From Pseudomonadales bacterium (lineage in GTDB: Bacteria; Pseudomonadota; Gammaproteobacteria; Pseudomonadales; Azotimanducaceae), in the NCBI GenBank assembly GCA_022825925.1, contig JAJDVW010000022.1, forward strand, positions 124,001 through 188,000: a stretch of DNA of 64,000 bases, given 5' to 3'. This document shows, piece by piece, positions 30,414 through 38,203 of the stretch. The notes beneath the pieces are model-generated. The model ran no database searches. It saw only the letters and a program-made list of their open reading frames with translations, and had not been told where the DNA came from. Within the stretch, counting starts at the first letter, position 1. The number at the start of each line of letters is the position of its first letter. The position numbers were made by a program, and so were the translations under genes.

Positions 30414-30902
30414 CTACGTCCCTTCCTTGATCGTCGCCGTCATGGTCTTCTCGGAGGGAATCCCGTAGACCGCGTCGGTGGCCCACGAGCCGTTGCTGCG
30501 CTGCATCTCGAAGTCACTCAGCCTCAGCTTGAATGTCTCGCCGCCATCCGCCACCGAGTCCGCATGCGTCTTGACGGATACGGACTCGGTCGTGTCGCCG
30601 GCGGCGACCACCAGATGGCCGCTCGAGGCCTGATAGTCGCTTCCGGAGGTCGCCGTGCCGTCTTCGGTCTCGTACTTCCACCGTATGGCGACGGCCATCC
30701 CGTGCGGCAGCGTGACGGTGAACGTCGCGTCGTTCCCTTCCTGCACCTCGATGTCGGGGGCCTGGAAGCCCTGAGCCGAGGCCACGGTGGCGACCACGGC
30801 GGCGAGGGCTGCCGCCACGATCCGCGCCCACCGGCCGGTTGTCCTCACGGTTCCGACGGTCGCGTACCCCCTGAACCCCGCATGTCCCGTTGATTTCTTC
30901 AT
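30414..30902 (-). CDS. Secreted single Calx-beta-like domain protein
   Basis: Signal region ending ASAQG; ATFTVTLPHGMAVAIRWKYETEDGTATSGSDYQASSGHLVVAAGDTTESVSVKTHADSVADGGETFKLRLSD. Confidence 0.75.
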   Translation of the reverse strand: MKKSTGHAGFRGYATVGTVRTTGRWARIVAAALAAVVATVASAQGFQAPDIEVQEGNDATFTVTLPHGMAVAIRWKYETEDGTATSGSDYQASSGHLVVAAGDTTESVSVKTHADSVADGGETFKLRLSDFEMQRSNGSWATDAVYGIPSEKTMTATIKEGT

Positions 30903-31049
30903 GGCATTGCTCTCTCATAGCACCAGTTCGGTTGCGTCCATCAAACTCTGGAAACGCACGGGGAGACTGTACCAGCAGGGCACTTCGGCCGCCATGATCG
31001 TTCTGCCGTCGCAGTTTCAGGACCCCCGGGACATCGAGGCCCTGCCGGA

Positions 31050-32810
31050 GTGATTGCGGCCCCTTCGTTGCACGGCAACATCCTGGACAACATGGACGAC
31101 GGCGTGGTCACCGTGGATGGCCAGGGCCTGATCACGAGCTTCAACCCCGCCGCCGGAGACATCCTCGGGATTGCGCCGGACGGCTGTCTGGGGCGCCTGT
31201 TCGCGGAGGTCTTCGTCGTTGCCGAAGGGCTCGACCAGTTCACCCAGTCGATGCTCGACGCGATCGACAACAGCGAACTGGGCCGCAGGACCGTCGAGAT
31301 CGACGTGGGCGGCGAGCGTCGGCTGCTGACGGTCAGCGCGTCGTACTTTCCCGATATCGCGCCGGCTCGTTCCGGCGGCGACGAGGCGGGCGCCGCCGGA
31401 GTCGTCGCCGTATTCACCGACATCAGCGAGGAAATGCGGCTGAGGGAGACGGTCGAGAGCCAGTTTGCCGAACTGCAGCAGGCCTACCGGGGCATCGACG
31501 AAGCCAACGGCGACCTCTCCGATGCACTGCGCAAGGCGCAGGTCGTGCGCGCCGTGGCGACGGCGGCGGTGATCGTCGTGTGCCTGGGCGTCGGCTGGTA
31601 TGCGTGGGACGCGGGCGACCCTCGCGAGGGGTCCGCCCCCCGGGCGGCGCCGGCGGGGGCGCCCGCGACGTTCGTCGTCAGGCCGCGGCGGGTCGTCTCC
31701 GAACTGACCGTGCCGGGGCGGCTCGCTCCGCGCCGGGAGACCGACGTGCAGAGCCCGGTGGACGGCAGCGTGGCAAGCCTGAACTTCCGCTACGGCGACG
31801 CGGTCGAGGCGGGCCAGCTGCTGATGGAACTCGATGCCTCGGTGGCCCGCCGCGAGCGTCGTTCGATGCGGGCGCGGCACATCGTCGCGCTGCGTCGCGT
31901 CGAAGAGCTTTCCGCCTGGGAGAACAGCCGCGTCGTCGCGTCCTCCAGAAGATCGCTCGCCCGCACCGAACGCGCCCTGCAGCAGCAGGGGCATCGGCTC
32001 ACGGAGACGGAGTTCCTGCTCGACCAGGGCATCGTTCCGAGGTCCGAACACGACGCCGCCCGGGAACGTTACGAGAGCCTGCGGCTCGACGTCGAGGCGG
32101 CGCGGCAGGATCTGCGCGAGGCGCGCCGCGCCGGCGACGCCGAGACGCTGGAGGCCGCGCGTCTCGAGTCCCGCAACCTCGAGGAGGAGCTGCGCGAACT
32201 CGACCTGGCCATCGCCTCGGCGAGCGTGCGCGCGCCGACCGCCGGCGTCGTGCTGCGACCGCCCGCGGCGGCCGACGGCGGCGGCCCCGTGCTCAGGGGG
32301 TCGTCCGTGGGCCGCGGTCAACTGCTGCTCACGGTGGCCGATGTCCAGGCCCTGTCGGTCTCCGCCCTTGTCGATGAGGTCGAAATCGCGACGATCCGGC
32401 AGGGCCAGCCCGTCGCGGTGACGGCGGATGCCCTGCCCAGCCTCGAACTGGCCGGAAAGGTCGTCAACGTTGCCGCCCAGGCAAGCAACGCGGGGCGCCC
32501 TCCGGGGCAGCCCGCGCTGTTCGCGGTCGTCGCGGCGCTCGACGACGACATCGATTCCGGGGTCCGCGGCGATCTGCGACTCGGCATGTCGGTGGACATG
32601 CGCGTGGTGACCGCCGACCGAAAGGACGCGCTGCTGGTGCCGATCGGCGCCGTGCTCGCGGGCGAAGGCGGTCCGAGCGTTCGGGTCCGGTCCCCGCAAA
32701 CGGGCAAGTTCGCGGCCGTGCCGGTCGAAACCGGCCAGACGACCCCGGGCGGCGTCGAAATCGTCGCCGGCGTCGAGTCCGGCGACGAACTGCTGCTCCA
32801 GGCCGAGTAG
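31050..32810 (+). CDS. PAS domain - TM - HlyD/MacA-type periplasmic adaptor fusion
   Basis: NILDNMDDGVVTVDGQGLITSFNPAAGDILGI (PAS); TM AVATAAVIVVCLGVGWYAW; adaptor ELTVPGRLAPRRETDVQSPVDGSVASLNFRYGDAVEAGQLLMELD...GVESGDELLLQ. Confidence 0.82.
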   Translation: MIAAPSLHGNILDNMDDGVVTVDGQGLITSFNPAAGDILGIAPDGCLGRLFAEVFVVAEGLDQFTQSMLDAIDNSELGRRTVEIDVGGERRLLTVSASYFPDIAPARSGGDEAGAAGVVAVFTDISEEMRLRETVESQFAELQQAYRGIDEANGDLSDALRKAQVVRAVATAAVIVVCLGVGWYAWDAGDPREGSAPRAAPAGAPATFVVRPRRVVSELTVPGRLAPRRETDVQSPVDGSVASLNFRYGDAVEAGQLLMELDASVARRERRSMRARHIVALRRVEELSAWENSRVVASSRRSLARTERALQQQGHRLTETEFLLDQGIVPRSEHDAARERYESLRLDVEAARQDLREARRAGDAETLEAARLESRNLEEELRELDLAIASASVRAPTAGVVLRPPAAADGGGPVLRGSSVGRGQLLLTVADVQALSVSALVDEVEIATIRQGQPVAVTADALPSLELAGKVVNVAAQASNAGRPPGQPALFAVVAALDDDIDSGVRGDLRLGMSVDMRVVTADRKDALLVPIGAVLAGEGGPSVRVRSPQTGKFAAVPVETGQTTPGGVEIVAGVESGDELLLQAE

Positions 32811-32881
32811 GGCGCAGAACGTAGAGTGGGGGTTGTCGGCGTGTCCTTCGCCGGCGGCCAGCTTGCCGTATCGACGCGTGC

Positions 32882-33376
32882 CTATCGACGCGTCAGATTG
32901 CCGCCGGCGTCGACGGTCAGCTTGCCGTTCAGCGGCAGGTCGGCATCGACGCTGTCGGCGCCGCCGCTGGATGAGTCGACAGTGCAGGTCAACTCGAGCG
33001 TGACATCGGAGGCACTGTAGCTGAAGCCCCGTACGGCCGTGCACTTCGCGCTGATGTCGTTGTTGTCGTCCCGCGTGGCATCCCAGGTGAATACCTCCGT
33101 TGCGGTGTTCCAGACAACCTCGCCGGAAAGGTCCATCGACGTGGACTTGGTCGTGCCGCTGCCGCCTACCCCGGTGCCTTTGTGGTTGCACTGCGCCGAG
33201 ACGGTAAGGCTCGTGCCGGCGACGATCGCGGCGCTGAAGCCGGTACACTGATTTTGCAGGTTGCCGTTCAGAGCCGAACTGTCGTAGTAGGAGTTCGCGT
33301 TTGCGGTCTGCGCCGCCATGCCAAGGAGAACAGCGGCACCGAATGCCGCGCACGTGTCGATCACGCTGTTTCGCAT
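32882..33376 (-). CDS. Secreted CVNH (cyanovirin-N homology)-like protein
   Basis: Signal peptide MRNSVIDTCAAFGAAVLLGMAAQTANA; NGNLQNQCTGFSAAIVAGTSLTVSAQC...SMDLSGEVVWN...ISAKCTAVRGFSYSASDVTLELTC...DLPLNGKLTVDAGGNLT. Confidence 0.5.
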   Translation of the reverse strand: MRNSVIDTCAAFGAAVLLGMAAQTANANSYYDSSALNGNLQNQCTGFSAAIVAGTSLTVSAQCNHKGTGVGGSGTTKSTSMDLSGEVVWNTATEVFTWDATRDDNNDISAKCTAVRGFSYSASDVTLELTCTVDSSSGGADSVDADLPLNGKLTVDAGGNLTRR

Positions 33377-33588
33377 CTTGCCGTTCCAATTGCCCCAAGG
33401 TTCCCAATGTAGCAGCTTCGCCGGTTGGGGCAAGCTGCCGGCGACGTGCATCGGTTTGAAATCCCGGCACGCTCCGCCGCCTTGGACTTGCCCGTCTCCA
33501 AACGCCTCTCCAAACCTCTCCAAACTGTCTGGACCGAACCGCACGGGAGCCGCTACGCTAGTACGCCGCCCCTCATCGGATCAATTCC

Positions 33589-38019: not shown

Positions 38020-38203
38020 ACGGCCGCTGCTCGTCAATGGGTGTCGCTGTCGATATCGACTCCCTCACGACAGGCAGGGCCGCAGGAGCCTTCAGCCGGG
38101 GAAGCTCCCTCGGCCGTTGATGCGTAAGGAAGTGTCGGCGTTGCTCCCTTCGGCGGATGCGTACTTCCTTGCAAGCTCGATCCGGTTCGACTGGGGAGGA
38201 CAC

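Follow-up and report, generated by a model that had tools for sequence, protein, structure and literature searches.

A gene in the 64,000-nucleotide stretch of DNA that we analysed (the window) encodes the adaptor of a tripartite ABC exporter like MacAB-TolC, with a cytoplasmic PAS domain that is joined by a coiled coil to the membrane helix and probably senses a signal and gates the pump. In the mechanism that we propose, an intracellular signal would change the packing of the PAS domain, the likely signal being a small molecule that the PAS core binds; a twist or shift would then run along the coil, cross the membrane in the TM helix and reach the adaptor ring that encircles MacB, and either ATP turnover by MacB or sealing of the tripartite channel would be raised or lowered as a result. 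Such control would act on the assembled pump, beyond transcription alone. In the solved pump, MacA, MacB and TolC stand at 6:2:3; therefore six PAS domains, perhaps arranged as three dimers, could surround the MacB nucleotide-binding domains. Since the fusion is kept at 22 loci in several bacterial groups, the pump may be switched directly by an intracellular signal and not only by turning its genes on or off. We see an even chance that these loci represent a class of exporters in which an exchangeable cytoplasmic sensor (PAS, once GAF) drives the adaptor ring directly by way of coil and TM helix. The assembled pump would then be switched from within the cell without transcription, in effect as a one-component sensor that has a channel complex as its output. 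If the family does have a built-in cytoplasmic sensor, then cells can gate export pumps from within by post-translational means. The family would also be a natural tool for work on adaptor control of ABC exporters, with sensor, linker register and output in one chain and separately testable.

The adaptor gene is a single uninterrupted frame from the GTG at 31050 to the TAG at 32808-32810, and its product consists, in order, of a PAS domain, a charged coiled coil, a TM helix and a MacA/HlyD-type adaptor (Table 1). This is the architecture that the initial annotation had read from the letters (a PAS-like module, a charged helical linker, one TM segment and a full adaptor in one frame), and Pfam, NCBIfam and hydropathy all bear it out, with PAS_4 and HlyD_D23, two of the domain families it had named, both above the Pfam cut-off. 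An AlphaFold model built from 19 relatives (mean pLDDT 84, pTM 0.46) has a PAS-like alpha/beta domain at residues 7-124 and one continuous helix at 126-187, followed by the adaptor. No second hydrophobic segment above threshold is present in the window protein, and the positive-inside charge pattern over the 22 relatives places the PAS domain on the cytoplasmic side.

Table 1. Features of the PAS-adaptor operon in the window and of a related GAF-bearing operon (positions are those of the window unless a locus is named).
Feature	Position	Strand	Basis or remark
Remnant of lost OMF (TolC-like) gene: last 7 codons DIEALPE + TGA	31030..31053	+	DNA alignment to G003 OMF/adaptor junction begins at 31030
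PAS - coiled coil - TM - membrane fusion protein (periplasmic adaptor)	31050..32810	+	586 aa, GTG start; Pfam, NCBIfam, orthologue alignment
PAS domain, residues 7-127	31068..31430	+	Pfam PF00989/PAS_4, Foldseek, profile match 3a0r E 2e-8; ends at invariant D124 of DI[ST] motif
Charged coiled-coil linker, residues 128-164	31431..31541	+	DIT Asp to ELxxAY = 17 residues, vs 24 in most relatives
Single TM helix, residues 165-183	31542..31598	+	Hydropathy and flanking charge over 22 relatives; N-terminus cytoplasmic
Periplasmic adaptor, residues 206-586: lipoyl, alpha-hairpin (about 263-390), beta-barrel, membrane-proximal domains	31665..32807	+	Pfam, TIGR01730, Foldseek
Insert between adaptor and MacB, 0.8 kb	32811..33588	.	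Absent from orthologues (about 0.1 kb there)
MacB-type ABC exporter, ABC_tran + MacB_PCD + FtsX in one chain, 663 aa	33589..35580	+	Pfam; 76-77% identity to orthologous ATPase/permease
GAF - coil - TM - adaptor in homologous OMF/ABC operon; GAF-GGDEF-reading gene after operon	L114 4011-5921 and 7930-9855		

The use of GTG 31050, on which the presence of the PAS domain in the protein depends, is upheld by the orthologues. In G003 (L037, the same contig as L050) the adaptor begins with ATG at the site homologous to the window GTG, and L049 likewise has ATG there. The G003 ATG overlaps the OMF stop codon by 4 nt (ATGA); the window equivalent is GTGA at 31050-31053, and the codons just ahead of the overlap read DIEALPE in the window against DVEALQE at the OMF end in G003. 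Because orthologues start at the same site in the same 4-nt overlap, GTG 31050 is the natural start, and a start downstream of the PAS region is ruled out. A chimeric assembly or chance fusion is likewise ruled out by the occurrence of the fusion at 22 loci in independent MAGs.

The identity of the N-terminal domain is supported by several kinds of match. PF00989 (PAS) scored 37.2 bits against a cut-off of 22.6, within residues 10-128; PAS_8 was also above its Pfam cut-off on the 586-residue protein, and the NCBIfam model for the PAS sensory box, TIGR00229, gave 36 bits against 22.9. In profile comparison this part matched the histidine-kinase PAS domain 3a0r, FixL and PYP. A second model, of residues 1-190 (pLDDT 75), matched the PAS structures of WalK, FixL, LOV and DosP in Foldseek with E values from 3e-8 to 1e-6, so the fold match whose lack, for the initial annotation, would have refuted its reading is present.

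The remainder of the protein is a complete adaptor of the MacA/HlyD type. HlyD_D23 scored 47.6 bits (cut-off 30) and HlyD_3 51.9 bits (22.2) over residues 219-500, and RND_mfp (TIGR01730) 111 bits against 94.9. Both the sequence search and the fold comparison put MacA first among PDB entries (Foldseek 9qgy, MacAB-TolC, E 3e-25). In the MacB-type gene downstream, PF00005, PF12704 and PF02687 were all above cut-off, and it is this protein that matches the ATPase and permease parts adjoining the orthologous adaptor. The NCBIfam equivalog models for MacA (PRK11578, 47.6 of 342 bits) and MacB (PRK10535, 401.7 of 966 bits) were not reached, nor was the type_I_hlyD cut-off by the adaptor (53 of 208.65 bits). 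On these scores we regard the window exporter as a relative of MacA/MacB, not MacA/MacB themselves.

The association with a MacB-type exporter, which the initial annotation had drawn from the window and proposed to survey, recurs throughout the family. An ABC ATPase gene lies near the adaptor in 21 of the 22 loci, an OMF gene directly precedes the adaptor in 18, and the complete order OMF, PAS-adaptor, ATPase, permease is found in 15. L063 shows the same order until its contig ends inside the ATPase gene; in L117 the ABC gene is on the opposite strand; and in L052 no ABC gene was found in the 4.4 kb after the adaptor. L118 and L119 have no OMF gene beside the adaptor, and L062 has undergone a separate OMF loss, with a remnant of its own OMF tail just before 6953, ahead of the adaptor. 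The ATPase and the permease, which form one chain in the window, are two genes in most relatives. Luciferase-like monooxygenase genes occur near four PAS-adaptor loci (upstream in L050, at 5953-6909 in L062, in L065 and at 8989-9915 in L118), probably by chance.

The window copy of the operon is itself altered. A minus-strand ORF with a Calx-beta domain (30414-30902) now occupies the place of the lost OMF gene, of which only the tail remains, and the insert between the adaptor and MacB genes carries a second minus-strand ORF (32882-33544) that is secreted-protein-like. A reading of this ORF by eye as CVNH-like is unsupported; its sole match is a weak one to DUF3617, below cut-off (E 0.007). 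Because the OMF gene is lost and the operon is interrupted by an insert, the window copy has to use an OMF encoded elsewhere, or may have decayed in part; other OMFs are present in the genome. Elsewhere in the window, the short stretch 38073-38174, whose translation is 76% similar to the beginning of the OMF frame of the adaptor's own paralogue, is probably a dispersed repeat.

We then consider what the PAS domain does. A signalling role is favoured over that of a passive anchor by three features that can be read from the sequences: the spacing of the linker, purifying selection and a GAF swap. In every one of the 22 proteins, the Asp of the PAS DI[ST] motif lies exactly 17 or 24 residues from ELxxAY. 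From residue 127 to the end of the TM helix this set has only two indels, each of exactly seven residues, one in the window clade and one in L064, which belong to separate clades of the tree; indels elsewhere in the protein range from 1 to 18 residues. Along the coil, hydrophobicity recurs most strongly every 3.5 residues (permutation p 0.016). The PAS-adaptors thus show the two marks of a signalling coiled coil, lengths that differ by multiples of seven and heptad periodicity, and such linker lengths have been reported for PAS/LOV receptors with signalling coiled coils (PMC6798134). A purely structural coil would also keep its register, so that a heptad-stepped linker, while showing a coiled coil, only favours signalling.

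As for selection, pN/pS in a comparison of the window, L049 and L050 was 0.26-0.29 for the PAS domain, 0.14-0.29 for the adaptor hairpin and 0.20-0.39 for the C-terminal barrel; the PAS domain is under purifying selection like the adaptor domains. The swap was found in G747 (L111/L114), where a similar coil, a TM helix and a homologous adaptor are preceded by a GAF domain (PF01590, 47.5 bits against a cut-off of 22.4) instead of PAS, and where the gene again lies between the OMF gene and the ABC ATPase and permease genes. This observation comes from one genome of 76% completeness, and no further GAF forms were found in 47 other genomes of its order. As PAS and GAF share mainly the property of being small sensor domains, their exchange points to input and not to scaffolding.

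These features bear on an alternative that we consider unlikely, namely that PAS and coil receive no signal and are a structural module that dimerises adaptor chains and assists in the assembly or anchoring of the hexameric ring at MacB. Dimerisation is a common role of PAS domains and coils, the heptad steps of the linker would suit a purely structural coil too, and the PAS domain has no conserved cofactor signature. However, the presence of a GAF domain at this position in a homologous operon is easier to reconcile with an exchangeable input than with a fixed scaffold, and the Asp of the DI[ST] motif (D124), which is typical of signalling PAS domains, is retained in all 22 proteins. Moreover, homologous adaptors lack any such module. 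Their occurrence in the same tripartite arrangement also counts against the gating sensor, since it shows that PAS is not needed for the pump as such.

With regard to the signal itself, the initial annotation had suggested a cytoplasmic ligand or redox sensor. The sensory part of this suggestion gains from the heptad-preserving linker, the GAF swap and purifying selection; the redox part fares worst. Across the 22 relatives, none of the PAS columns has a His, Cys, Met or Trp with a conservation of 85% or more; hence sensing by heme, LOV flavin or thiol redox chemistry is not indicated, and a PAS of the heme, LOV-flavin, redox or PYP type was rejected for want of a conserved ligand residue (His/Met, Cys). 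What remains as a candidate input, given no cofactor signature, is a freely exchanging small ligand, or none.

Two further alternatives to a PAS sensor that gates the pump were weighed. The small cytoplasmic domain of HlyD binds substrate (PMC13328181), and the PAS domain could similarly dock an export substrate or a partner protein in the cytoplasm, serving cargo selection or partner recruitment and not small-molecule sensing; we hold this to be distinctly improbable. Against it, no genes other than those for OMF, ATPase and permease are conserved around the adaptor in the 22 loci, so that a conserved cargo or partner gene beside the operon is lacking. Furthermore, MacB-type exporters are thought to load their substrate on the periplasmic side, and binding of cargo in the cytoplasm is accordingly less likely. 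Finally, it is very doubtful that the pump acts as a receptor whose adaptor relays the periplasmic or pump state inward for PAS to report in the cytoplasm: coiled-coil TM linkers can carry signals in both directions, and a GGDEF-type gene follows the operon in the sole GAF-bearing relative, but no output domain follows the PAS domain, and the surroundings of the operon contain neither a response regulator nor any other conserved output gene.

A gating PAS sensor would set this exporter apart from the systems that it most resembles. It shares with MacAB-TolC (PDB 5nik, 9qgy) the hairpin, lipoyl and barrel domains of the adaptor, the ABC_tran-MacB_PCD-FtsX partner and, in the operons of relatives, a TolC-like OMF; it works like MacAB-TolC and is related to it. 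The differences are that its scores fall far below the MacA/MacB equivalog cut-offs, that ATPase and permease are separate chains in most relatives, and that MacA is without a cytoplasmic domain, whereas PAS and coil in the window protein amount to about 165 residues. This absence is stated in a 2026 review (PMC13328181), according to which MacA-type adaptors answer stress mainly through transcription, and it supports the view of the initial annotation that such adaptors normally have no more than a short cytoplasmic N-terminus. HlyD likewise has an N-terminal TM helix and a cytoplasmic N-terminus, but its cytoplasmic part is short and substrate-binding, and the partner in the window is MacB-type, not HlyB-type. 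The PAS fold, the DI[ST] motif and the heptad-step coil downstream recall the PAS-coil modules of histidine kinases such as ThkA, WalK, FixL and AtoS (PMC6798134); in contrast to these, the window protein has no kinase or other catalytic output, and its coil leads outward via the TM helix into a periplasmic adaptor.

As a precedent for the fusion of a sensor to an adaptor, the GAF-HlyD proteins of SecA_DEAD/Peptidase_M50 loci come closest; they were suggested in 2015 to have a sensory role (PMC4452313). They too combine a cytosolic-type sensor domain with HlyD/biotin_lipoyl domains in one chain; however, the sensor is GAF and not PAS, and in those loci, which contain SecA_DEAD and M50 genes, no ABC transporter was found. 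The PAS-adaptor loci, with their conserved neighbours limited to OMF, ATPase and permease genes, differ from what defines the SecA_DEAD loci. No PAS-MacA or PAS-HlyD fusion was found in the literature searched, which largely excludes subscription papers.

The 22 loci, which were counted after removal of duplicates, come from MAGs of Gammaproteobacteria, Alphaproteobacteria and Acidobacteriota. The genome of the window holds a full-length PAS-adaptor paralogue (G000:C37, 41% identical), and full-length PAS-adaptors are also present in G003 (one) and G020 (two). Named genomes contribute 18 loci, including three Alphaproteobacteria MAGs and two Acidobacteriota MAGs, several of them being the same records as those with G handles. 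A TolC-adaptor fusion suggested by a 1148-residue open frame in the window's paralogue was discarded: the OMF is in another frame, and the extension is merely an open GC-rich frame. Within the window's own family, PAS-adaptors occur in 13 of 207 genomes. When the class and the phylum were sampled evenly (369 and 399 genomes), none was found outside the window's own genome at the thresholds used, and these samples otherwise gave PAS-less adaptors and one GAF form. Plasmids carried no PAS-adaptor, all plasmid matches being PAS-less adaptors, and a match in Armatimonadetes (L069) proved to be an ordinary adaptor without PAS. The trait is uncommon and patchy.

The tree unites all PAS-adaptors but the divergent L063 in one group (96/98). 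L060 and L066, the two copies from Acidobacteriota, are nested in a group of mostly gammaproteobacterial members (100/100), a placement that points to transfer between phyla (in symbionts) or a binning error. Many of the named MAGs carry the bin prefixes RHO, COS and CAR, which fit the sponge species of PMC8163846; to judge by these names, they would be sponge symbionts.
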